The notes under the pieces were generated by a model that saw nothing but the letters and a program-made list of their open reading frames with translations, was not told the DNA's origin and searched no databases. From Acidilobaceae archaeon (GTDB lineage: Archaea > Thermoproteota > Thermoprotei_A > Sulfolobales > Acidilobaceae): a DNA stretch of 33,905 nucleotides. Both the position numbers and the translations under genes were made by a program. Numbering within the stretch: position 1 is the first letter of the stretch; each line of letters starts with the position of its first letter. This document shows positions 2,512 through 19,621 of this stretch, in pieces. Location: contig JALUAM010000064.1 of assembly GCA_027051095.1 (NCBI GenBank), positions 1 through 33,905 of the forward strand, written 5' to 3'.

Positions 2512-4203
2512 CTAACCTTTGAATACGTACTCAGCCAGATCTTCCATTAACTTACGCGATACATTGTACACCTTGTCCAGGAGGCAGGGATCGTAGTAGA
2601 GTTTTATCGCGTGCTTCACGTCAGGCTCGCAGTTAGACTCAACAGTTAACACTCTAGCCGTGAGGCCCGCGTGAGCAGCGAACACTCTATCAGGCAGGTC
2701 TCCCTTAAGGGTTTTCTGCTTTAAGCCTAGGTCCTCCGCTGGGCCGCACAGCCTGTGAGCCTCGTGTGCTAGCTTGTAGTCGGGCGCGGCCTCTTCACCT
2801 TTCGCGGCGCGCTCGAAGTTAGAGACCTCGTTCTCGACTATAGCCTTGGAAGGGCCTACGAGCATATACTCAGCTATCTTCTCTAAAGCGTGCAGGCTCG
2901 CCACAGCCACTTTAGCCCTAGGCCTCTTGCATCCGGCTTTTGAGCCAGCTAGACTAGACCCCCTCTCCTCTACTCTGACTCCCCCCATTCTAACTGCATG
3001 GCTGGAGTAGAGCGTTAGCGATGAGAGCGCGGCGAGCTTCTTAACAATCCCGTACCTTAACGCCGCCAGGTGTTCTACTTCCACACTAGGCGGCTCCTGC
3101 CTGCAACCTTTACGCACCTCTACCACGGGTAACAGTTCTAAGAGCTTTGCCGGGTACCCGGTCAAATCGCTTACGCTCAGGCCGCTATCCTGGGCGGCAG
3201 CCCAGGCTTGGGCTAACAGCAGTGGGGCGCCCGCTGTTATCGCCGCTGCCGCGGCCCATCCAGGCCTATTCAAATTATTAAGCTTTCCGAGCGTTTTCCC
3301 GAGGTCTCGTGCGATCCTGCTTTTGCACTCGCCGCACTTGCCGGACACATCGACGAGCTTTGGCACTCTGAGGCTAGCATGCCCTCCGTCGCCCTTAGCA
3401 GATAAAGCGGCGTATACTAGCCTCGAAGCCGCAGCCCTAGGCTTAATCCTCTCCCTCCTGACTATCAGAACGTTGAGGCTCCCGGACCCCTCCACGTAGG
3501 GCTCACTGTTATAGACTGTTATGTCGACGGGGGCCTTGCTGGCTGCCGAGTAGACTCGGGAGGCGAAGAGAACAGCCCTGTAGATGGAGTAGCTTGCATA
3601 GTTGATCCCGTGGGTCAGGTCCACGTGGACCTCGGCCCCGCAGCCTTCGAAGAAGCTCTGCATAGCATCTATTATGTGCAGGGCTTGGAGGGCCATGAGG
3701 TAGTCCATGGGTCCTACTCCGCCCTTCTCGAGGTCCTCCGCCAGCTTCCAGCGAGCCCTTCTCCTGTCCCCGGCCGCGGCGGTGTAGCTAAGCTCCCCGA
3801 AGCCGGGTATAACTCTCACGTCCACGTCGATCTGCTCCACCCGCTTAAACCAACAGTATATGCACCCGCCCACCCGCTCCATGAAGGTCCTGTAAACGCC
3901 GGCTTCCACTACGCCTTCGGGCAAGTCGTCGAAAGGGTCTGGCAGGCACTCGGCACCCTCGACTTCTTCACCGCCACGCCTATACCTCGTGTAGGCTGAG
4001 AGAGTGTCAAGGGCGAAGACGATGACCTTTACGTCCACGCCTCTGCTAAGTAGCCACTCGTAAATCAACTTAATGCTAGTCCTAGACTTTACAGAGTCTA
4101 CATGCCCCTTCTCTCCGCCGCGAGCCCAGGGAGCCCTGTACTCGACCTCGCGCCAGCCGTAAGGAGCGCCTATGGGGGCTATCAGGAGGGCCCTGCCCTC
4201 CAA
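2512..4203 (-). CDS. csx1: CRISPR-associated CARF-HEPN protein, Csx1 / DxTHG-motif (MJ1666-like) family
   Basis: DxTHG motif in VHVDLTHGINYASY. C-terminal HEPN-like R-x4-H in DRVFAAHAGLTARV, comparable to RNxxxHxGL of Csx1 proteins. N-terminal IAPIG...VIVFALDTLS Rossmann/CARF-like strands. TTG start. Confidence 0.8.
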   Translation of the reverse strand: MEGRALLIAPIGAPYGWREVEYRAPWARGGEKGHVDSVKSRTSIKLIYEWLLSRGVDVKVIVFALDTLSAYTRYRRGGEEVEGAECLPDPFDDLPEGVVEAGVYRTFMERVGGCIYCWFKRVEQIDVDVRVIPGFGELSYTAAAGDRRRARWKLAEDLEKGGVGPMDYLMALQALHIIDAMQSFFEGCGAEVHVDLTHGINYASYSIYRAVLFASRVYSAASKAPVDITVYNSEPYVEGSGSLNVLIVRRERIKPRAAASRLVYAALSAKGDGGHASLRVPKLVDVSGKCGECKSRIARDLGKTLGKLNNLNRPGWAAAAAITAGAPLLLAQAWAAAQDSGLSVSDLTGYPAKLLELLPVVEVRKGCRQEPPSVEVEHLAALRYGIVKKLAALSSLTLYSSHAVRMGGVRVEERGSSLAGSKAGCKRPRAKVAVASLHALEKIAEYMLVGPSKAIVENEVSNFERAAKGEEAAPDYKLAHEAHRLCGPAEDLGLKQKTLKGDLPDRVFAAHAGLTARVLTVESNCEPDVKHAIKLYYDPCLLDKVYNVSRKLMEDLAEYVFKG

Positions 4204-7989: not shown

Positions 7990-8481
7990 GTGAGGCGTAG
8001 AGGCTTGCCCCTACCACCCGGCTACGGCCTCGTAAAGGCTGTTAACGTCGTTGCCTACGCTAAGAGGTTCGCGGACCCCCACACGAGGATGTACTACGAG
8101 ATACCGGTGATAGAGCTTAGACTCGAGAACGGCAGGAGGTTCCTAATGAGCAACGTCCCCCCGGAGATAGTGGAGGCCATACAGGTGATGAACAACCAGC
8201 TCGACGTGCCCAGGAGGCAGAGCATCTACATTCTACTCATGAACAACCAGGAGTTCAGGGACATAGTGACAAGGAGCGTCAAGGAGGTCATAATAGACGA
8301 GCTGGACGAGGTCAGGGGCCTCTACACCGCGAGCCTGGTGCTAGAGGAGAACGGCTTCCACCTCACACTCAAGATGATACCGAGCCACGCAATCTTCCTG
8401 GCGCTCCTAGCAGGGAAGCCCATATACGTCAGGGAGGACCTAGTCGAGCAGGCGGCCGAAGACGAGGAAGAAGAGTTCTAG
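7990..8481 (+). CDS. DUF151 / bifunctional-nuclease (BFN) domain protein
   Basis: YEIPVIELRLENGRRFLMSNVPPEIVEAI...SLVLEENGFHLTLKMIPSHAIFLALLAGKPIYV matches the DUF151 pattern. Start GTG 7990 or TTG 8005; the N-terminal part of the listed ORF (from 7699) is a shadow of rps7. Confidence 0.75.
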   Translation: MRRRGLPLPPGYGLVKAVNVVAYAKRFADPHTRMYYEIPVIELRLENGRRFLMSNVPPEIVEAIQVMNNQLDVPRRQSIYILLMNNQEFRDIVTRSVKEVIIDELDEVRGLYTASLVLEENGFHLTLKMIPSHAIFLALLAGKPIYVREDLVEQAAEDEEEEF

Positions 8482-8503: not shown

Positions 8504-11500
8504 CTACGGCTTGGCCGCTCCGCCGTCTGTCTTGGAAACTGCTGGCTCCTCGATTAACGCATAGAGCCTCTTAACTTTCACGCCACCGGCCCTCTCTAGC
8601 CTAAATCTGCCTACGAATGCATCCATGAAGTCCGAGAATGCTAGGCGATTCCCGCCGTTATACTCGATTGATGCCTGCACTAAAATCCGCGTCTCGCGGG
8701 AGTTTGATGCCAGGAGCTGCGCTAGCCCCGGCGCTATGCTCTTCATCCTCTCTATGTCAGTGAATGTAAGGTCTACCGTGCCCCTGAGCTGGCCGCCGCC
8801 GACTTCTATGACTAGCCTGGCGTTCACGACGTACGATTTCAACGTCCTCTTATAGATTTCGGCTAGCGCTAGTGCTAGCAGATTAGTGAGGGGCCTCGCC
8901 CTCTCGACAGTAAGCTCGGCTTCAACCTCTAGGTCGGCATTCATTAGAAAAGCGTTAGTGTAACCGCCTATCTTTCTCTCCAATAGCTCCCTTAACTCGT
9001 GCAACTCCACCTCCTCATCTATCACGATCCTGCGTCTACCGCGCTCCTGGGACTCTCTTACAGCGGGCACAGAGAACTGCGGAGGAGTTGCTTCAGCCTC
9101 CGCCCCTCTGCTTTCCGCTCTCCTCTCGCATCTCCACGACCTAGAGTCTTCGTCCCACACGGGCTCCACGCAATCTACCGGAGGCTTTGGCCTGCATATA
9201 GTCAGGCCCTCCTCATTCTTAGTCACGAGACAGTAGCGCCTCGCCTCCTCGAGGTTGCAGGGGACGAACAGATACCCCTCGACCTTTCCGATCTTGCCGA
9301 GACAGACCGCGCTGTCCTCCGAGGCGCTCACCGCCACTAGATAACCATCCTCTACAAGCCTAGCAAGAGCTTCAGACACAGCCTCCCTAGCCCTTAGCAC
9401 CATAGGCTTTTCTACGTCGCCCGTGAGGCTCTCAATAACGTCGCTGAGGCTCACAGGCCTCCCGAGGCTCGAGCTCAGAGTCTCCACTAGACGCATCACG
9501 TATGAGGGAGTCAAGCTCCTGCGGACAAGTTTTCCTGCAGCCTCTAGAACCTCCGACACAGCGCCCCACAGCCTACCCCTCTTAATGGCGCCCGGCCTGA
9601 GCGTCTCCCTTGCGAAATCAAAGTCACTACCCACTAGAGCCCTCACAGGGTAGTAAACCTCGATGTACAGCTGCTGCAGCTCGCTTTCAAGCTCCCTCTC
9701 AAGTTTCTCCCTCTCAGATGCTAGACCTTCAAGATCATCGCGCTGCAGGCCGTAACGGTCCTTTTCGGCTTCTATCTCTTCAATCGCCTTTAAGCGTGCT
9801 AGCCCCCTAAGAACCCGTCTATATGCCTCAACGTTAGGCACCAGGAACACCATGGTGTTCCTGTGCCTCCTGAACTCGGAATCCCCTCTCTGACGGTATA
9901 TAATGAAGCGTGACATCAACCTCTTAAGTCTGCGTTCATCGCCGCTCACAACATCCTCCGACTCGGGATCCAACAGCACTACCTTGAGCCTTGGGCTATC
10001 TTCTACTTCCCCTGGGTGGATAGGCCACACTACAAGCCTAGCTTCAGTAGAGGACGCTAATCTTTTTAGCCTCTCCCTTAATTCTTCTCTTAATAATTCT
10101 CTCTTAGCGTTTAATAGTTCTCTAGCTTTCCTGGCAACGATCATGTACACGTTGGCCTTTGTCTTGACAATGTATGCTGTCTCCCCCGTCTCAAGCACCC
10201 TCTTATGTAGATGTGCGGTCTCCCTTGCAAGCTGCTCTAGGACCGACGAAACTAGCTCAACGTTTACACCCCTCAAGGGGGTAACAGCAGCTGCCATCAC
10301 CTCGCTCTCCCTCATGTAGCGTCCCGAGATGCTTCTAAGCAGTATCGCGGAGTAGACCATGGAGGCTACCCTTCCAAGCCCCCTCCTAACACGTTCCTCA
10401 TCGAGGTCTTTCACTACCTCCACGTCGTAAGACACGGCCTCGAGGAGCCTCCTAAGCTGAGGATTATCGACCTTAAGCAAGTCCCGTATCTCATGTCTAG
10501 TAACATCGACGTCGCCTAGAAGGACGAAGTCGCGCGTTACGCCTTGCTCGGGGCTCTTAACCCTGTAGTGTAGCGTCCACGCGGCTATCCTTAACACGTC
10601 TCTAGTGCCCTGGAATCCGGGCGTCTGAGCCACGTTCTCGTACAGCTCCCTCACTAGTAATGGGTGGAATGGGTAGCTCCTCCTTAACTCATCCTTATAC
10701 TCGTCCCTAACCAGCTCGCCTGGATATCTCTCCCGCCTGGACAGGTACTCCTTCATATACCTCCAGGCGGCTCTCTCAGCTGCGTCAGCATCCACCTCTC
10801 TTATGAGAGCGCTCTTGAGGATCTCCGCAGCGTCCGAAGGCCCTACTATGGAGGTCGTCACAGCCACTCTCTGGACGTCGGATAGAAGCGCTTCAACCCC
10901 ACTCGACTCCTCGTACTGCTGCGGCGTGGCTATAACGACTAAAGTGTGCCTCGCGTTGGACGCCGCCACCGCCAAGTTATGGATGAACACCCTTAGGGCG
11001 CTCGCCTCCTTTTCCCTGCCCGTCGAGAGCAGGTTGCGCAGGTATACGGCCAGCTCGTCTATCAGCACCACGGGCTTAAAGCCTCTAGACTCTATCGCGG
11101 AGAAGAGCCTAGAGAGCTCGTCGTGGCCGGGAACCGCGTCCCTATACTCATCTACTTCCCTAGCAAGCCCTCCATCGCCTATGGCCTCCGCAAGCTCTCT
11201 CATAATGAAGACCCATGGGTTAGGGGCCCCGTATCGCCTGCGTAGCGAGACCGGGTCCAGGGCTGCCCCGTCGAAGACGCTCACAGCCACTCTCAGATCC
11301 TGAGGCAGCCTCAAGCCCCTCTCTTCCAAGAATCGCCTCAGCTTCACGCTATCCAACGACCTAGACGGGTTCCTGGCAATATGGTATATTGCCACGAGGG
11401 TATGCGACTTCCCGCCCCCGAAGCCTGTGTGAAGCAGGTATACGGCGTCGCCGCCCCCCTCTACGAGTCTCCTAACAGCCCCGGCCAGTACTTCGGAGAG

Positions 11501-11701
11501 GCCGCTTGAGAAGTAGGTCCTCTCAAAGAACTTAGCGGGGTCCCTATACCTCTCGTCTAGGCACTCCCAGCCCCCGCCAGGGCACCCCCTATGAACGGTC
11601 CACAGCTTAACCGTGAAACTATCGCTCCTAATCCTTCCCTCTACTATCTCCTCGAAAGGCTCCCATCCCACAGGGCCATACTTTCGGGCCTCCACGGCCA
11701 C
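8504..11701 (-). CDS. DUF499-type AAA+ ATPase (BREX BrxC/PglY-like), putative defence protein
   Basis: Walker A LLHTGFGGGKSHTLVAIYHIA, Walker B-like KPVVLIDELAVYLR, sensor-like HTLVVIATPQQYEE, and overall DUF499 layout (1065 aa). GTG start. Confidence 0.85.
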   Translation of the reverse strand: MAVEARKYGPVGWEPFEEIVEGRIRSDSFTVKLWTVHRGCPGGGWECLDERYRDPAKFFERTYFSSGLSEVLAGAVRRLVEGGGDAVYLLHTGFGGGKSHTLVAIYHIARNPSRSLDSVKLRRFLEERGLRLPQDLRVAVSVFDGAALDPVSLRRRYGAPNPWVFIMRELAEAIGDGGLAREVDEYRDAVPGHDELSRLFSAIESRGFKPVVLIDELAVYLRNLLSTGREKEASALRVFIHNLAVAASNARHTLVVIATPQQYEESSGVEALLSDVQRVAVTTSIVGPSDAAEILKSALIREVDADAAERAAWRYMKEYLSRRERYPGELVRDEYKDELRRSYPFHPLLVRELYENVAQTPGFQGTRDVLRIAAWTLHYRVKSPEQGVTRDFVLLGDVDVTRHEIRDLLKVDNPQLRRLLEAVSYDVEVVKDLDEERVRRGLGRVASMVYSAILLRSISGRYMRESEVMAAAVTPLRGVNVELVSSVLEQLARETAHLHKRVLETGETAYIVKTKANVYMIVARKARELLNAKRELLREELRERLKRLASSTEARLVVWPIHPGEVEDSPRLKVVLLDPESEDVVSGDERRLKRLMSRFIIYRQRGDSEFRRHRNTMVFLVPNVEAYRRVLRGLARLKAIEEIEAEKDRYGLQRDDLEGLASEREKLERELESELQQLYIEVYYPVRALVGSDFDFARETLRPGAIKRGRLWGAVSEVLEAAGKLVRRSLTPSYVMRLVETLSSSLGRPVSLSDVIESLTGDVEKPMVLRAREAVSEALARLVEDGYLVAVSASEDSAVCLGKIGKVEGYLFVPCNLEEARRYCLVTKNEEGLTICRPKPPVDCVEPVWDEDSRSWRCERRAESRGAEAEATPPQFSVPAVRESQERGRRRIVIDEEVELHELRELLERKIGGYTNAFLMNADLEVEAELTVERARPLTNLLALALAEIYKRTLKSYVVNARLVIEVGGGQLRGTVDLTFTDIERMKSIAPGLAQLLASNSRETRILVQASIEYNGGNRLAFSDFMDAFVGRFRLERAGGVKVKRLYALIEEPAVSKTDGGAAKP

Positions 11702-11761
11702 AGCCGGCTACCCGGGTCTATAGCCTCCAGCTACACTAATTTATAATTTAAATGTGCTATG

Positions 11762-14413
11762 TTAAAAGAACTCGTCGAGCCTCTTTACCCGCCTATCGGC
11801 TCCCAGCCCTGAATTACTACCCTTATGCTTCTCGATGCACAGCTCGACTAGCGTTGAGAGCGCTTCTTTCTCCTCACCCTGCGAGTCGCCCCGCAAGGCC
11901 TCAATATACCTACACACGCCCCCGTCCAGAACGTAGCCCGCATCCTCCAGCGCCTTAGCAGCGCTCCTAGCGCCTCTCACCCCAACTATTCTCACCGCGA
12001 GAGCTAGCGCCTCAACCAGGCTCGAGGGGGAAACCGAAGGTTGGATCTCGATGAGGCTCTTGACAGGGTACTTCTTGACCCCGCCCGTTACTCTAGGCTT
12101 CCCTGCGAATCGCCTGAGAAAGCTGTCGTGGTCTACTCCAAACGCGTAGCCCAGCCTCCTAGCGTCGTCGTACTCTAGCTCCCCGTAGATGACCCTAGCA
12201 ACTAGGTACATGAGGGAGGTTGGATCGGCGTTGACGCTCCCAAGCGTCTCATAAACGAACCTCCTAACGGCGACCTTGACGGCGTAGTCGATCAGGGCCT
12301 TCACAGACAATTCTCCGCCTTCCAGGCTCTGTAGGGGCCAGCAATCGCCTACAGCCCTGAACGCCGCCCCTATCGCAGCCATTATCGCATCGACCCAGTT
12401 AAGGTCTAGCTTCAAGGCGAGCGATACAGCCATCTCCACCGCATCCTCGGTTTTCTTCCTGACCTGAGCGTCCCAGAAGCAGCCGGAACCCTTGACTCTG
12501 GGTAGAGCCGCCACTACCATCATGCTCTTCACAGCAGCCTTGCGGGCTATGTGAATGCTCCTGGTCTGCTCGGAGGCTACGCTCCACACGGCCACGGGCT
12601 TCCAGCCCGCGTCCAGAAGCGCCTTGAATATCGCGTATAGGCCTTCGCTGCTGCGATGAGCATAGAGCACAGCGAGCCTCGAGACCCCGGCCTCCCTTAG
12701 AGCCCCAAAGGCCATGGACAGTCTCGATATAAACCACTCGCCGTCCCGCCCCCGCGCCCTGTTAACAACGATTTCATCATCCTTCGGCGTCAGCTCCCAC
12801 ATGAACGCCTCCGGGTACAAGTGGCCTATGCTCCTCTTGAACCACACATAGAAGAAGTCGCTTAGCTCCGCGTACTGGACGTTATCGTAGTAGGGGGGAT
12901 CTGCCACAGCGTACAGCCTCCCAGAGATACCCTCATAGAGCGTGGGGTCTGCCGCGTCACCCAGCCTCACCTCGACACTCCCCGGCGAGCCCTCAAGCAG
13001 CTCCACAATCTTCTCGAGAGCCCTCACAACGCCCGTTTGACTAAAGAACACCCAATATATACTTGAGGCGTCCGAAAGTGGATCTCCCTCGCCGAAGTCC
13101 TCGCCGAACACGTAAGCGTGCATGTAGAAGGTATGGTTTATTGAACCCTTGCCGTGAGGATCCCATGTAGTTATAGCTGAGTTGTAGTCGAGCAGCTTGC
13201 CATGGCCCAGTGCGAGGTATGTCGTCACAGCCTTGGCGTACTCGGGCTCATACCCCTCGCTAAGCATTCTATTATAGGCCTCTCTCACTAGGCCGACTAT
13301 AGTAGCATGAGTTAGGAGCTGACGAGCATTAAATAGTTTATAAAATTTGTCTAAACCTCTGCTAAGCATGTCAATTGTTTTATCGCCTTTTGGAATCTTT
13401 TCTATGGGTATTAAATCTTCCGTGATTAGTTTCTCCCAGGATGCCCTGAGGTCCTCCTCCGCCCTTCTATAGGCTTTAAGCATCTCCTCCGTGGGCTCAG
13501 CGTACGACCCGTCCTCCAGCTTCACTGCAGCCATGACAGCCGGGTGATAGCCGTACATTCCCTTGGACTCCCATGACTCCATCGCCCTCCTATACTGTCT
13601 CTTGAGCTCCTCCGAGCTGAGCACCCCCCGGAGGCAGCTCAGCTTCTTGCCTCTCGCCGTCGCTAGCCCGCGGGCCTCTTCCGGCGATGCCCTCACCACT
13701 CTTAGCAATGGCTCGCCTCTCTCCGTGAACCCCTCGAGCCTCAGAGCAGCGCCGTTATCCTCTGAGAGCAGGGGGTTGGCCAGCGCTGGCATGAGTGTGC
13801 CGTCAGGGCACTTGTAGACCCTGACCCACACGTAGTTCGTGGGCCTGCCCCTAGGGTGGGGAGGGTAGTATTTTTCAAGCCTCCTCTGCGCCTCCTCTAC
13901 TAGCCATTCAGCCCACTTCCTGACGTCGCGTGCTAGCCCTTTCCCGTACCTTAGCGGGTATTCCAGGGTAGCCTTCAGTATCACGTAGGCCACTGGGTTG
14001 TACTCGGCCGCTACTACCCTCTTGTAGCCTAGGCGGAGGGCTTCGAAGGGGAGGCTTCCGCCGCCGGCGAAGGGGTCTATCAGAGTGGCTTCGCTCACGG
14101 CGCTGTGAGCCTTCACCCAGCCCCTGTCCGGGCTGTAATTATATGCTGGCCGGGGGGGCCTATTATGCAGCCTTATCGCTCTAAGGAACTGATTGATTAA
14201 GTCTTTATCAGGGGTGCCGTCAACGTCGACGGCTAAGGCCGCTACTATCGCTCTAGACGCTGCTAGGGGCCTCCTAGCCCACCAAAGATGTAGATAGAAA
14301 ATCGGCGGGAATCTTGCACCCCTTTCCCTCTGGGACTCGAAGCCAGCCTTATCTGCCGGGAAGTAGTGCTGGAGGAGGGGCTCCAACTTCGGCACCCAGC
14401 TCCCTTTCCACAT
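11762..14413 (-). CDS. DUF1156-domain DNA methylase (predicted adenine-specific, COG1743-like)
   Basis: N-terminal DUF1156 signature FYLHLWWARRPLAASRAIVAALA; motif I LIDPFAGGGSLPFEALRLGYKRVVAAEYNPVAYVILKATLEYP; motif IV AVADPPYYDNVQYAELSDFFYVWFKRS. Confidence 0.9.
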   Translation of the reverse strand: MWKGSWVPKLEPLLQHYFPADKAGFESQRERGARFPPIFYLHLWWARRPLAASRAIVAALAVDVDGTPDKDLINQFLRAIRLHNRPPRPAYNYSPDRGWVKAHSAVSEATLIDPFAGGGSLPFEALRLGYKRVVAAEYNPVAYVILKATLEYPLRYGKGLARDVRKWAEWLVEEAQRRLEKYYPPHPRGRPTNYVWVRVYKCPDGTLMPALANPLLSEDNGAALRLEGFTERGEPLLRVVRASPEEARGLATARGKKLSCLRGVLSSEELKRQYRRAMESWESKGMYGYHPAVMAAVKLEDGSYAEPTEEMLKAYRRAEEDLRASWEKLITEDLIPIEKIPKGDKTIDMLSRGLDKFYKLFNARQLLTHATIVGLVREAYNRMLSEGYEPEYAKAVTTYLALGHGKLLDYNSAITTWDPHGKGSINHTFYMHAYVFGEDFGEGDPLSDASSIYWVFFSQTGVVRALEKIVELLEGSPGSVEVRLGDAADPTLYEGISGRLYAVADPPYYDNVQYAELSDFFYVWFKRSIGHLYPEAFMWELTPKDDEIVVNRARGRDGEWFISRLSMAFGALREAGVSRLAVLYAHRSSEGLYAIFKALLDAGWKPVAVWSVASEQTRSIHIARKAAVKSMMVVAALPRVKGSGCFWDAQVRKKTEDAVEMAVSLALKLDLNWVDAIMAAIGAAFRAVGDCWPLQSLEGGELSVKALIDYAVKVAVRRFVYETLGSVNADPTSLMYLVARVIYGELEYDDARRLGYAFGVDHDSFLRRFAGKPRVTGGVKKYPVKSLIEIQPSVSPSSLVEALALAVRIVGVRGARSAAKALEDAGYVLDGGVCRYIEALRGDSQGEEKEALSTLVELCIEKHKGSNSGLGADRRVKRLDEFF

Positions 14414-14430
14414 CCAATCTTAAAGAGGGG

Positions 14431-14440
14431 CGCTGCAGCG
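14431..14440. repeat. Perfect 10-bp palindrome CGCTGCAGCG in the divergent intergenic region
   Basis: CGCTGCAGCG equals its own reverse complement. Confidence 0.6.
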
Positions 14441-14442
14441 TT

Positions 14443-14451
14443 CCTTATTAG
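14443..14451. promoter_or_regulatory. Candidate shared TATA-like element between divergent DUF1156 methylase and nuclease genes
   Basis: CCTTATTAG is the only AT-rich box roughly midway in the 62-bp gap, about 30 nt from each start codon (14413 minus, 14476 plus). Confidence 0.4.
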
Positions 14452-14475
14452 CCCCGCCGCTGTCTCAATTTACTG

Positions 14476-16404
14476 GTGCCCCTTTGCTTGCTAATTGAGG
14501 GTTTCTTCGCCCGCGAGACCGGCAAGAGCGCCTGCGGCGATATAGGCCTCAGGATGCTATCGCGGACAGCTCACCTCGTGAGGGCTAGGAGCGTCGCTAC
14601 AGCCGCCGCAGGCTGCGTGTTCCAGGCCAGGCTCGGAGAGGCTATGGGCGTGAGGGGCTTCTACCACTCTGTGCTGCCGGGTAAGGGCGAGGCCCTTCAC
14701 CTTCTCCTAGCTCTGTCATTCCCCAGGGCTTTTAGGGAGTTCGTGGATAGGGGTTTCGAGCGTGGCCTGTGGCTCGAGGACGTCGCTTCTGAGGCCCTGG
14801 AGAGGATGAAGGACCTGGGGTTCAGCGAGGAGGAGCTCGGCGGTGAGAGCCCTGATAGACTAGCTGAAGACGCTGCCCTAATGTTAGAGGGAGGCCTCAT
14901 TTTCGTCGAGGAGGCGTTCAGGGCTCTCCACGGAAATGAGTGGAGGGAGGCTCTGGCCAGGTCCTCGGTGATAGTTGAAGCCCACATGCTAAGCTACACT
15001 TTCCATATATGGGGGGTTCCCGACGTCATTGTAGAGTACCCTGAAGGTGGTACCGCCGCCGTTATAGAATGGAAGAGCTATACGCCCAGCGAGTCCAGGT
15101 CGGCGCAGGTCAGCGAGGTTGACGAGGCGCAGGCCTACGTATACGCAATCCTCGAGGCCGAGAGGCTCCACGGCGACCCTAATAAGAGCATGAGTTTCGA
15201 GGAGCTGAAGAGGCTCGTTCTCGGCTCGCCCCCCGGAGGCTCGGGGGCTAGGGTGATACCGGGGGTAGTCAGGCTCGTTAGGACCTCCAGGGCCAACCCG
15301 GTTAGGGTCAGGCACCCTCTCCTCTGCATAGGCCTTAATAGGAGGGAGAAGTGCAGCTACGATGAGCTAAGCGATCTTCTAGCTAGGATAGTGCTGGCTG
15401 CCGAGCATCTGGCCCTCACTCTCGCCGACGTCTCCGGCATGCTGAAAGGCGAGGGGGTGCCAGAGTCTCTATGCAGCGTTCTAGGGCGCGACGGTACTCC
15501 AAGAATCGTGTTTAGGAGGGTACCCGAGGTTGAAGTTGACGGTAGAAGAATTAAATTAAGGTGGGGTAACCCCCTCAAGGAACCGCCCCATTGGATATGC
15601 AAGATGTGCCGTCCCGAAGTAAGAGAGGTCTGTAAGTACTACCTCTCCCGAGGAGGCAGTATACTAGACATTGACCAAAGGCTCCTGGAGCGGTCTGTGA
15701 AGGAGGCGCTGGAGAGCGCGAGGGACCATATATGGAGGGAGTCGTGGCGCGCGAGGTTTAGAATATACGGGTTGAGGGAGAACGCCCTGAGACCCTATAA
15801 AGTCTTTAGGAGCTTAGCCCTCAAGTTCGGCGCCGACGGGGGCTGGATTAAGGGTCACATAGATACAAGGGTATCGAATGAAGGGTACAGGCTCGATTAT
15901 TTCGATGAGGCTAGGGTTGAGGATGGCGTCCTAGTGCTGAGGAGGCCCCCGACTAGGTGGGAGCGCGAGAAAGAGGTCCTAGTCACCCTGAGGGAGGGGA
16001 GGCCCGCGGCCGTTTTCTTCAGGGAGAGACACGTGAAGGACCCGCTTCTCAGGCTCAGCTTTCACGGCGCCGTATCCAGCGTGAGATACGATAGGGTTGA
16101 GGGCTACGTTGTAGTGGAGATAGCTCCCTCCCACAAGCCCTCGCGGGTGAACTTAGAGACTCTGCAGGACGCGATCGAGAGTAGGCCCGAGATAGCTGAG
16201 GGCGTAGTAGCCATAGAAGTCAACGTTGACCTGACGCAGCTCGAGCTGCTGGGCATCACGGCTGCAGAGATAGGTACCGCTGTTAGGCTGAGGGAAGCTG
16301 CTGAGAGAATTGCGAGGGGGGAGGAGGAGCCCGAGGACCTGCTGGCTTTCTACTTCGGTGGAGTCCCCCCGGCTTTCTGGAAAAAGGTGCGTGATCATGG
16401 TTAG
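14476..16404 (+). CDS. Cas4/RecB-like PD-(D/E)xK nuclease with putative Fe-S cysteines, putative defence nuclease
   Basis: WGVPDVIVEYPEGGTAAVIEWKSYTP (PD...ExK), downstream VDEAQAYVYA (QxxxY), and WICKMCRPEVREVCKYY with an upstream Cys, a Cas4/AddB-like cysteine layout. Start may be GTG 14476 or ATG 14554. Confidence 0.75.
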   Translation: MPLCLLIEGFFARETGKSACGDIGLRMLSRTAHLVRARSVATAAAGCVFQARLGEAMGVRGFYHSVLPGKGEALHLLLALSFPRAFREFVDRGFERGLWLEDVASEALERMKDLGFSEEELGGESPDRLAEDAALMLEGGLIFVEEAFRALHGNEWREALARSSVIVEAHMLSYTFHIWGVPDVIVEYPEGGTAAVIEWKSYTPSESRSAQVSEVDEAQAYVYAILEAERLHGDPNKSMSFEELKRLVLGSPPGGSGARVIPGVVRLVRTSRANPVRVRHPLLCIGLNRREKCSYDELSDLLARIVLAAEHLALTLADVSGMLKGEGVPESLCSVLGRDGTPRIVFRRVPEVEVDGRRIKLRWGNPLKEPPHWICKMCRPEVREVCKYYLSRGGSILDIDQRLLERSVKEALESARDHIWRESWRARFRIYGLRENALRPYKVFRSLALKFGADGGWIKGHIDTRVSNEGYRLDYFDEARVEDGVLVLRRPPTRWEREKEVLVTLREGRPAAVFFRERHVKDPLLRLSFHGAVSSVRYDRVEGYVVVEIAPSHKPSRVNLETLQDAIESRPEIAEGVVAIEVNVDLTQLELLGITAAEIGTAVRLREAAERIARGEEEPEDLLAFYFGGVPPAFWKKVRDHG

Positions 16405-17950
16405 GATTTCATTATGCGATGCTATAAGGAGGGCGATGGAACTATCGAATAGACGATGGGGACCGCTAAGACTAAACGAGAGCCAGGAGAAAGCGCTGAG
16501 ATTGTTGGAGGAGGCTGTTAAGGGCTCAATAGACGTGCCGCTCGGAGCAGTCCAGGGCCCTCCCGGCACCGGAAAGACTAGCGTTGTCGAGGCGTTTGCA
16601 GATAGAGTGCTGCCTCGCTTTCTAGACGATATTGAGAGTAGGGAGATCATTATTTACGTGGCGCCTACTAACCACTTAGCGGTTGAAGCATTTGTAAGGA
16701 TAGCGTCTACTCTGCTCTCTAAAGGCCTCTTCACGGTGAGAGACCTCATCGACATGATAAGGGTTTACGGCTACAAAATATCGCCGGGTGACTGCAAGAG
16801 CCTGGAGAGGCTCCATGGAGTCACGGCAGACATGGTTAGGCAGGTTCTCCAGGACTACATCGAGCCCGGCGCGGTCAAGTTAGTATTCACCACGGAGTTC
16901 CAGAGGGTTAGCGGAAAGTTTAGAGAGAGCCCGGAGAAAGTGCACCTGATAGTCGATGAGGCAAGCAAGTCTCCTTACTTTAGGGCTTTTCTCCCCGTGG
17001 CCGACTATATCATGAGGTATAGTGGATACCCCGCGTCGCTCATAGCATTAGGCGATCCAGAGCAGGCTATAGCAGTGCCTGAGGAGCTAAGGAAAGACGT
17101 CCCCCTTCTCATGAAAAAGGTTATAAGGCTCCTAAAAGAGGGGGGCCTCAGCGGCTCGAATTACGTATTCCTAAACATTACATACAGGCTACCTAAACCT
17201 AGCGAAGAGCCCATAAGCCGGGGATTCTACGATGGAATGTTGAAGGCTCGTTTTACGTCGATCGAGAGACTGAGAGATATGAGCGAAGTTTTTGTTGATG
17301 AAAGGGAGAGAGTCCTCGAGGAGCTAGGCAAGCTGCGGGCCCTCGACAACGAGACAGAACGCATACATGATGCGCTCTACAACGCCGTCACCTCGGACGC
17401 CCCGATAGTAGTTATTGATACAGGCAGATTCTCTCCCCTATCTATGAGAGCCACTTTATCAACGTACGACGCTAAGAGGGCTAAAGCGTCGGCTAAGGCT
17501 CTCCTAATTTTAGGGCTCTATAGGCGAGTGGCTGGCGGCGAATTCGACGTTATGGCTCTCACGCCTTACAGCGACATGGCATATAATATTGAGTACCTCA
17601 TGGCCTCGAGATACGGCCATTTAGTTAGAACCCTTCCGCCCTCGCGGACGGTCCACTCTGTTATAGGCGGCGAAGCTGATGCCATTGTAGCCGTACTAGG
17701 CAAGGAATACGCCTTATCCCGCGTGTATAGCCCGTTTATGGATGAGAGGGAATACCAGACAATATACTTTAACGAGCCCCAGGTGCTGAATGTGCAGCTT
17801 AGCAGGCATAGGAAATTGCTGGTTATAGTGGGCCACGTAGACGGCCTTGCCTCTACGCAGAAAAAGGGCGAATGGAAGAAGTTAGCGGTTACAGCAGAAA
17901 CCGTTAACAGGCTTGTAGACGAGGGCCTAGCTATCCGCATCAAAGTCTAG
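16397..17950 (+). CDS. SF1 (Dna2/UPF1-like) DNA/RNA helicase
   Basis: Q-motif NESQEKAL, Walker A VQGPPGTGKTSVVEAF, motif II VHLIVDEASKSP, motif III ALGDPEQAI, TVHSVIGGEADAIV, NVQLSRHRKLLVIVG. ATG 16397 lies inside the end of the nuclease gene (8-nt overlap). Confidence 0.85.
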   Translation: MVRISLCDAIRRAMELSNRRWGPLRLNESQEKALRLLEEAVKGSIDVPLGAVQGPPGTGKTSVVEAFADRVLPRFLDDIESREIIIYVAPTNHLAVEAFVRIASTLLSKGLFTVRDLIDMIRVYGYKISPGDCKSLERLHGVTADMVRQVLQDYIEPGAVKLVFTTEFQRVSGKFRESPEKVHLIVDEASKSPYFRAFLPVADYIMRYSGYPASLIALGDPEQAIAVPEELRKDVPLLMKKVIRLLKEGGLSGSNYVFLNITYRLPKPSEEPISRGFYDGMLKARFTSIERLRDMSEVFVDERERVLEELGKLRALDNETERIHDALYNAVTSDAPIVVIDTGRFSPLSMRATLSTYDAKRAKASAKALLILGLYRRVAGGEFDVMALTPYSDMAYNIEYLMASRYGHLVRTLPPSRTVHSVIGGEADAIVAVLGKEYALSRVYSPFMDEREYQTIYFNEPQVLNVQLSRHRKLLVIVGHVDGLASTQKKGEWKKLAVTAETVNRLVDEGLAIRIKV

Positions 17951-18038
17951 GGGAGCCGCCTTCGTAAGCCCAAGCAATTACACTCCTAACCTGTCCCAGC
18001 CGCTCCCAGCCGGGAAACCCTTAAGCGGGGTGTGAAGG

Positions 18039-19157
18039 GTGCCCATTAACCCTTGGAGAAGCTTGCCACCTCATAGATCTCTAGGGGTTTACACTGAGCA
18101 CGGGCTAACCCCCACCCTTCTCAGGGAGTTTATATCGTCGGCGAGGCAGGCGGGATGCATTGAGATCTATGATCCCTTCGTTGGCAGCGGCGTAGTAGTG
18201 ACTTATGCCCAGGAGACGTGCATGGCATCCGCTGGGGCAGACTCCAATCCCTGGAGCCTACTGTTGAGTAGGGCTAAGACTCTGCCGCTAGACTGGCATG
18301 CGCTTAAGTCCTGGGCCGAAGATGCTAGGATGCTAGTAAACAGTCTTAAGCCCCTAGTACCGTCTCCCAGACTAGCCAGGTACCATGACGCCAAGACGCT
18401 GGAGGACTTAGGGAGGCTAAGAGCGCTGGTAGAAGAAGCGCCCGAAGAATGGAGGCCTCTGCTTCTAGCCGTGCTAGCTAGGGTAGCCTATAAATGGAGC
18501 AGGCTAAGAAGGACTCCAGCCCCCAGGTTCCGGGAGGGAGTTACCCGCAGCGCCGGGAGCGTCTATGCGGACTTCTTCCGGCTCTTGGGAGAGGCCGTGA
18601 AAGAGCTGGAATCAAGGAGATTCTGTGGACCCGTAGCTCTCTTCCAGGCCGATAGTTCCTCGTGGATGCCCCGACGGGTGTGCGGCGTAGTCACTAGCCC
18701 GCCCTTCGCTAACAATATAGACTACGTGAGGCACACTATGCTAGAGCTACTCTGGTCCGGCCTTGCTAGGAGCAGCGAGGACCTCGGCCGCCTAAGAAGC
18801 GCGCAGGTGCCAGCATGTGAAGCTGCCGCGAGGAGCTGGAAGCCACTCTCCACTAGGCCCTGGCTGGTGGAGCTGGTCTCGAGAGTGGGCGGCTCGAGAG
18901 CCGTTGGCTTTAGAAGATTCCTTCTCCAATACTTCCGCGCTATGGAGACCCACTTCTCGCTACTCTCTGAGGCCCTAGAATGGGAGGCTTGGTACACTGT
19001 GGGAGACAGCGTGCTAGGCGGCGCCTACATACCCACCCACGAGCTGCTGGCAAAACTCGCAGAGGAGTCGGGGCTGAAGGCCCAGATAAAGCCCCTGGGC
19101 CCCCGGATGAAGCCGGGAAGAACTATATACTTGCTGAGGCTTACGCCACGAAGGTAA
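18039..19157 (+). CDS. DNA methyltransferase (TSPPF motif; N4-cytosine/N6-adenine class)
   Basis: Motif I EIYDPFVGSGVVVTYAQET; motif IV GVVTSPPFANNIDYVRHTMLELLW; N-terminal NPWRSLPPHRSLGVYTEHGL. GTG start. Confidence 0.8.
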   Translation: MPINPWRSLPPHRSLGVYTEHGLTPTLLREFISSARQAGCIEIYDPFVGSGVVVTYAQETCMASAGADSNPWSLLLSRAKTLPLDWHALKSWAEDARMLVNSLKPLVPSPRLARYHDAKTLEDLGRLRALVEEAPEEWRPLLLAVLARVAYKWSRLRRTPAPRFREGVTRSAGSVYADFFRLLGEAVKELESRRFCGPVALFQADSSSWMPRRVCGVVTSPPFANNIDYVRHTMLELLWSGLARSSEDLGRLRSAQVPACEAAARSWKPLSTRPWLVELVSRVGGSRAVGFRRFLLQYFRAMETHFSLLSEALEWEAWYTVGDSVLGGAYIPTHELLAKLAEESGLKAQIKPLGPRMKPGRTIYLLRLTPRR

Positions 19158-19177: not shown

Positions 19178-19621
19178 CTACCTCCTGGGCTTCTGCTTCT
19201 TGCCCTCCCATAGGGCCTTCAGAGAGACGCCGTTGACCATGACAACCCTGTACCTGACGCCTGGTATGTCGCCCATCGACCTGCCCCTCGGGCCCCCTAT
19301 ACCCTCTATTATCACCTCGTCGTGCTCGTCTATGTACTCCAGGCCTCCGTCGAACGGCACGAACGCTGTGACAACCTTCTTGTTCTTGACCAGCTGCACC
19401 CTCACGCACTTACGCAGGCCGCTGTTAGGCTGCCTAGCCTCGACCCCGACCTTCTCGAGCACTATGCCCCTGGCCATCGGCGCGCCCTCCAGGGGGTCGT
19501 ACTTCTTCTTCAGCCCTAGCATCCTGACCTTGAACTCCCTCTGGCTCCACCTGAACTTGAGCCTCTTCCTCCTGAGCTTCCTGGCGGCGAAGAGGCCCGC
19601 GGGGGCCTTCTTGCCTGCCAC
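19178..19621 (-). CDS. rps12: 30S ribosomal protein S12
   Basis: [52 protein letters not shown]...[29 protein letters not shown]. Confidence 0.98.

Follow-up and report, generated by a model that had tools for sequence, protein, structure and literature searches.

Hma systems have been defined by the combination of a helicase, a methylase and an ATPase (PMC8565338), and were subsequently renamed and divided into three types of DUF499-centred BREX-related (BR) systems, all of which have a Swi2/Snf2 helicase in common: type 1 is marked by a fused restriction endonuclease (REase), type 2 by an HKD nuclease and DUF3780, and type 3 by PglZ together with an iSTAND protein (PMC12839542). Here, we analyzed a contig of an Aeropyrum-like, hyperthermophilic Acidilobaceae archaeon (JALUAM010000064.1; C64 in our numbering) over its entire length of 33,905 nucleotides, hereafter the window, from a 1.43-Mb genome in 76 contigs that is 82.6% complete. 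At positions 8504-19157, it holds a cassette of five genes whose sequences place it in the Hma, or DUF499-centred BREX-related, group. We consider the cassette to be a multigene restriction-modification (R-M)-like antiviral system of this type, in which HmaA has been replaced by a two-gene Dna2-like nuclease-helicase, and give this reading a probability of roughly 60%. The features of the cassette are as follows.

8504..11701, minus strand: DUF499 STAND/ORC-like AAA+ ATPase (HmaC relative), 1065 aa
11762..14413, minus strand: DUF1156 N6-adenine-type DNA methylase (HmaB relative), 883 aa
14414..14487, no strand: divergent intergenic region between the arms, ~74 bp by coordinates; presumed shared promoter region
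14488..16404, plus strand: NUC, a predicted Cas4/Dna2-type PD-(D/E)XK nuclease followed by an Upf1/Dna2-type stalk and 1B beta-barrel domain
16397..17950, plus strand: HEL, a superfamily 1 (SF1; Upf1/SMUBP2/Dna2-like) helicase with a RecA1+RecA2 core, 517 aa
18039..19157, plus strand: MT2, a second DNA methylase, 372 aa

The DUF499 and DUF1156 core

The first-pass annotation of this DNA had reported five tightly packed genes in two divergent arms with motifs readable in the translations, and both points were borne out: the five open reading frames (ORFs) are uninterrupted and closely spaced, with the DUF499 and DUF1156 methylase genes in the minus arm and NUC, HEL and MT2 in the plus arm, and the motifs are intact and conserved in relatives. 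The DUF499 ATPase matched Pfam DUF499 (6e-33) and PADLOC HmaC (2.6e-57), as well as NCBIfam NF042962 at 4e-29, well under the cut-off of that model. The DUF1156 methylase matched Pfam DUF1156 (1.1e-12), PADLOC HmaB (2.8e-60) and, well under its cut-off, the NCBIfam antiphage DUF1156 model; the residues of its motif I (DPFAGGG) and motif IV (DPPY) are invariant across 10 relatives.

We then looked for the remaining components of the described systems. HmaA, the Swi2/Snf2 helicase, was matched at the locus neither by PADLOC nor by a custom Snf2 profile, and no PF00176 (Snf2) protein was found in the organism's own genome at its 82.6% completeness; as a control, the helicase of a canonical Hma at another site in the sister genome G006 matched HmaA at 6e-61 (G and L handles denote genomes and loci). 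The same genome, as complete as stated, gave no PglZ (PF08665), with control genomes positive. Among the window ORFs scanned, no Pfam match was obtained to the DUF3780 gene or HKD-Snf2 helicase of BR type 2; PADLOC gave no match to BrxA, BrxB, BrxL or a DUF6079-type BrxC in the ten ORFs scanned, and none to DrmA, DrmB (DUF1998) or DrmC (PLD) among the cassette proteins. BREX proper was ruled out by the lack of PglZ and Brx matches and by the DUF499-type ATPase, DISARM by the lack of Drm matches, and a complete Hma by the absence of HmaA. PADLOC thus assigned only HmaC and HmaB, and no complete system. Of the BREX/Pgl-like link proposed earlier, BREX/Pgl itself fell away, the nearest systems being the Hma or DUF499-centred BREX-related ones (PMC8565338; PMC12839542), and the idea of a modification-based cassette of non-standard composition stood, with no PglZ and a nuclease/helicase pair in the effector's place.

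To place this composition among its relatives, we compared DUF1156 loci across the phylum, where DUF1156 occurs in 70 of 398 genomes, using a tree set of 67 long DUF1156 proteins. A Snf2/HmaA-type helicase was present at 47 of their loci, NUC and HEL at 10, and neither at a further 10 (contig ends truncate several of these loci, and five group in a separate clade), while none of the 67 had both. Together, the HmaC/HmaB core, the absence of Snf2 and this mutual exclusion suggest that NUC/HEL has replaced HmaA. In the tree, a quick one with some long branches, NUC/HEL was probably gained twice, once in a main clade of eight and once in the pair G199/G090, which falls within the Snf2 clade. In that pair, McrBC-like genes follow DUF499 and there is no Snf2 helicase. 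In G199 (L142, 4861-9799), the usual place of HmaA is taken by a pair of McrB-like AAA_5 genes, of which one includes an EVE domain, together with a probable McrC.

Two side observations concern the same families. A separate DUF1156 clade (L137, L128, L135, L139, L140) encodes an unassigned protein of ~1,060-1,100 aa in place of a recognizable DUF499 and no Snf2 helicase, with partners of ~275 aa and ~160 aa in several members and a BrxL gene following the locus in L137; this is possibly another undescribed DUF1156 system. An orphan DUF499-like ATPase of 872 aa, without methylase or helicase, lies on contig C20 of the window's own genome (L010, 5780-8398), adjoining argininosuccinate synthase/lyase-type genes and a CDC48 ATPase gene, and was set aside.

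NUC and HEL as a putative two-gene Dna2

A nuclease and an SF1 helicase are present, as first annotated; taken as two unrelated parts they did not hold up, since their models look like halves of a Dna2-like enzyme. NUC matched Pfam PDDEXK_1 (7e-9), and the alignment of relatives favours TTG 14488 over 14476 as its start. Across 15 relatives, four cysteines (47, 375, 378 and 386, P0001 numbering) that resemble an Fe-S cluster are invariant, and the nuclease residues H75, D183, (E/D)198, K200, Q219 and Y223 (same numbering) are conserved. An AlphaFold2 (AF2) model built from a 15-sequence alignment (predicted local distance difference test [pLDDT] 86, predicted template modeling score 0.90) gave a single significant Foldseek match in the PDB, namely Dna2 (5eax; E 1.2e-7, probability 1.00), with an alignment of 650 columns for the 638-residue query at ~14% sequence identity. 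The next matches fell into two groups, nuclease-free helicases of the Upf1 family (Senataxin, Aquarius) and nucleases of the RecB type (MGME1, AddB, Cas4), as expected if NUC is a Dna2 nuclease domain plus stalk/1B barrel; a long helix at 402-447, barrel strands at 468-546 and a helix at 583-609 in the model agree with the stalk/1B assignment. The sequence profile of NUC gave no match against the PDB at E 1, so the link to Dna2 rests on structure.

HEL matched Pfam AAA_11 (2e-8) and AAA_12 (2e-7), and a profile search reached Upf1 chains at 4e-11; its AF2 model (pLDDT 83.6) matched Upf1 (4e-15), SMUBP2 (1e-14) and Sen1 (~1e-14) by Foldseek. The protein begins directly ahead of the Q motif, too late in the fold for HEL to include a 1B domain itself. 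Its ATG at 16397, which replaces the start at 16310 given in the first-pass annotation, overlaps the NUC stop by 8 bp, an arrangement that fits co-production. From these models we infer that Dna2 is split over two genes, NUC corresponding to its nuclease and stalk/1B region and HEL to its RecA core. Thus, NUC would carry the RecB/Cas4-type nuclease with its four-Cys cluster and, at the C-terminus, the stalk/1B-like region, and HEL the SF1 Upf1-like motor, on separate chains, unlike single-chain Dna2.

Recurrence, partners and genomic site of the cassette

NUC was searched for in 48 genomes of the family, 398 of the phylum and GTDB contigs, and the loci were read with profiles of the five proteins. 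A check on co-occurrence, proposed with the first-pass annotation, found the genes together elsewhere: DUF499, DUF1156, NUC and HEL are combined at ten loci, namely the window, G008, G028, L028 (a Thermoproteota metagenome-assembled genome), L029 (Bathyarchaeota), L030 (Pyrodictiaceae), G252, G066, G199 and G090 (L026 is G008 and L027 is G028, each counted once). Hosts include Aeropyrum, Pyrodictiaceae, Bathyarchaeota and other Thermoproteota. Wherever a locus holds both ends, NUC and HEL are neighbours, and the pair directly adjoins DUF1156 divergently in most full-length loci. Gene order varies (MT2 lies past DUF499 in G066 and on the opposite strand in L029), so the association outlasts rearrangement. 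Recurrence in ten loci is far beyond chance. Although defence genes do cluster, the same genes recur in several families and an unrelated class, at varied sites and in varied arrangements, with a conserved divergent layout, and a chance build-up of unrelated defence genes in one island, which the co-occurrence already contradicts, is vanishingly improbable.

Distribution across the phylum is patchy, with NUC in 12 and HEL in 15 of the 398 genomes. No NUC relatives were found in plasmids, and 44 pattern matches in viral contigs yielded 0 confirmed. Several cassette relatives adjoin McrBC-like, Piwi or other defence genes; in the Pyrodictiaceae copy, a Piwi-domain protein of 936 aa (L030, 12507-15317) directly adjoins MT2.

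The fifth gene, MT2, is present in 8 of the 10 loci, the two without it being cut by contig ends. Its motif I (DPFVGSG) and motif IV (TSPPF), conserved in a 7-row alignment, suggest an N4-methylcytosine (m4C)-like enzyme. Several PADLOC type II methyltransferase models (MTase_II) matched it at ~2e-12; Pfam gave no match, and its profile gave chance matches alone in the PDB. All close relatives of MT2 that were found adjoined HEL or were remnants: on a 3.5 kb contig of G239, MT2 directly follows HEL; G270 has a fragment of MT2 and no other cassette gene there (L163, 9655-10092); and the G090 copy is decaying, divided over two frames (L035, 6366-7424).

NUC and HEL also occur in a second context. 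Six further NUC+HEL loci (L031/L036, L037-L041) lack an adjacent DUF499/DUF1156 core, and in all six a DndC-like 3'-phosphoadenosine 5'-phosphosulfate (PAPS)-reductase gene, recognized by Pfam, adjoins the pair (PADLOC DndC ~1e-35 in L031 and L037; DndC also matched in L038). A search with the HEL profile added two genes, in G080 and G215, each next to a DndC-like gene and a gene for a PDDEXK_1 protein, bringing the NUC/HEL-type pairs beside a DndC-like gene to 8 loci. Every HEL found in the 398 genomes thus adjoins a modification gene, either DUF1156/MT2 or DndC-like. The NUC tree sets the methyl and DndC types apart with full support (methyl-type clade 100/100), and the HEL tree gives the same split except for L041, on a very long branch. 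Some DndC-type loci also share an AAA-like protein, a Methyltransf_11 protein and a ~175-aa protein (MRIRxLRExYCxxC...RSPRSTGV); the last occurs with a ~400-aa gene in L031 (5961-7755), L040 (6020-7670), L174 and L175, the ~400-aa gene being Methyltransf_11 in L031 and L040. We see even odds that the NUC-HEL split Dna2 is an undescribed, exchangeable restriction module of Thermoproteota, working with base-methylation marks in one clade and DndC-dependent sulfur marks in its sister clade, and thereby makes both a new DUF499/Hma type and a new phosphorothioate-linked system.

These two contexts bear on the chief rival to our reading, in which MT2, NUC and HEL form a self-contained three-gene R-M-like system, sister of DndC+NUC+HEL, and DUF499 and DUF1156 are mere defence-island neighbours, incomplete or acting separately. 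Co-occurrence fits this account and a five-gene system alike. Pairing of the methyl-type NUC clade with two distant DUF1156/DUF499 lineages, the shifting position of MT2, the HEL-MT2 order on the G239 contig and the ability of the DndC type to do without DUF499 all speak for it. Conversely, not one of eight full-length loci has MT2, NUC and HEL without DUF499 and DUF1156, NUC/HEL keeps its divergent place beside DUF1156 in most of them, and DUF499 and DUF1156 have no Snf2 partner there, and we therefore hold the three-gene account to be possible but rather doubtful.

Dna2 acts on flaps and resected ends. Such substrates, as well as the pairing of NUC/HEL with two chemically different markers, which suggests that it need not read a mark of its own, would also suit a guard or integrity sensor that hits damaged or replicating foreign DNA whatever its modification, with the methylases protecting the host or forming a separate layer. 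A precedent is Hachiman HamAB, a defence complex of nuclease and helicase described as a sensor of DNA damage (PMC12278908). However, a modification gene would be needless to a mark-independent effector, and every HEL has one beside it, which makes such a guard unlikely.

The genomic site of the cassette, 10.7 kb in length, is bordered by two core genes.

7990..8481, plus strand: BFN (bifunctional nuclease domain) core gene, left border, start approximate (Pfam BFN_dom 3e-9)
19178..19621, minus strand: ribosomal protein S12 gene of the rpo-str cluster, right border (Pfam 4e-46)

On one side lie rpoB, rpoA1, rpoA2, an L30e-like gene, nusA and rpS12 (the rpo-str region), and on the other rpS7, EF-1alpha and tRNA-Ser, the small BFN gene adjoining S7. 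In four sister genomes of the genus (G005, G006, G007, G009) the site is empty, BFN and S12 being convergent neighbours ~80-240 bp apart; in the window and in the sister species G008, the cassette fills that gap. The five genes of these two share 70-75% amino-acid identity, with a ratio of nonsynonymous to synonymous substitution rates (dN/dS) of 0.07-0.12 and dS near saturation, and are under purifying selection. The empty site points to a recent insertion, and together with the low dN/dS it marks the cassette as a distinct, maintained unit that some members of the genus have acquired or kept. Since Dna2 is a repair and replication enzyme and the cassette stands among housekeeping genes, a DNA repair or replication-fork module under epigenetic regulation, rather than a defence system, was also considered; the patchy distribution, the empty site in four sister species, the core of a defence family and the defence genes that adjoin several relatives make it highly improbable. 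Past EF-1alpha and tRNA-Ser, ~4 kb off the cassette, lies a Csx1-type CARF endoribonuclease gene (PF22230, 1.4e-21; 2512-4203, minus strand), with none at the corresponding place in G008.

Proposed mechanism and relation to known systems

In the system as we picture it, the DUF1156 methylase (N6-methyladenine type) and MT2 (m4C type by motif) would mark host DNA, and the DUF499 AAA+ ATPase would join the DUF1156 methylase in a complex that scans DNA. On unmodified DNA, this complex would recruit or license NUC-HEL, a Dna2-like particle in which the stalk/1B domain of NUC completes the HEL motor and which would unwind and degrade the invader from ends, flaps or nicks. The complexes, the methylation specificity and the self/non-self logic are presumed, as is the antiviral effect, which family membership, patchy distribution and defence-island neighbours suggest. 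Several points weigh against this reading. Defence function is attributed to the cassette by association; with the genome 82.6% complete, a Snf2 helicase may lie elsewhere in it; the Foldseek match of NUC to Dna2 is given by aligned length alone, without coordinates; NUC and HEL were modeled as separate chains, their shared stalk/1B being deduced from domain order; and in G199/G090, where McrBC-like genes stand beside DUF499, replacement of HmaA is not the sole reading.

To our knowledge, few defence systems beyond CRISPR and classic R-M have been described in hyperthermophilic archaea. The cassette adds a variant of a widespread, little-studied family in which the repair enzyme Dna2 appears, in two genes, as a putative restriction effector. 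With one effector module beside two DNA-marking chemistries, experiments could tell an effector that reads the mark from one that a sensor licenses, and the domain split offers a natural experiment on the assembly of an Upf1/Dna2-type motor. In the literature searched, subscription papers being mostly uncovered, no DUF499 or Dnd system was described with a Dna2- or Cas4-like nuclease paired to an SF1 helicase. Unspecified PD-(D/E)XK nucleases lie near some type 1 loci, and single loci of the cassette's kind may be listed without comment in the supplement (PMC12839542); the closest published parallel comes from UvrD-Cas4 fusions encoded next to R-M genes (PMC5704561). Whether the NUC-HEL module merits a class of its own could go either way.

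Among known systems, the cassette shares with Hma and BR type 1 the DUF499 ATPase and the DUF1156 N6-methylase, found as HmaC and HmaB (PMC8565338; PMC12839542). The described BR types, however, have a Swi2/Snf2 superfamily 2 (SF2) helicase, together with an REase, an HKD nuclease or PglZ and iSTAND, whereas the cassette is without it and instead has the two-gene Dna2-like SF1 enzyme and a second methylase. It resembles BR type 3 in its DUF499/DUF1156 core and in having no nuclease fused to a Snf2 helicase, and differs in that its own genome yielded neither PglZ nor a Snf2 helicase. UvrD-Cas4 fusions near type III R-M and Dcm likewise set a Cas4-like pfam12705 nuclease and an SF1 helicase beside DNA methylases, but are single chains with a UvrD (SF1A) helicase, from bacteria and mesophilic archaea, in contrast to the two genes and the Upf1/Dna2-type helicase of the cassette (PMC5704561). 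Hachiman HamAB is also a two-gene nuclease and helicase (PMC12278908), but HamB is a DEAD-box-type helicase in PADLOC and Hachiman has no methylase or DUF499. With the Dnd systems (DndABCDE-FGH, DndCDEA-PbeABCD), the likeness is that DndC-like PAPS-reductase genes adjoin relatives of NUC/HEL; the window has no DndC, and the NUC/HEL of DndC-type loci is not DndFGH or PbeABCD, PbeA being an HKD/SF2 helicase (PMC6459918; PMC10853773). Finally, eukaryotic Dna2 and the cassette have in common the match to the full-length NUC model, the Cys pattern, the RecB-type nuclease motifs and the Upf1-like motor, but where Dna2 is one gene serving replication and repair, the cassette has two, at ~14% identity, within a modification cassette.

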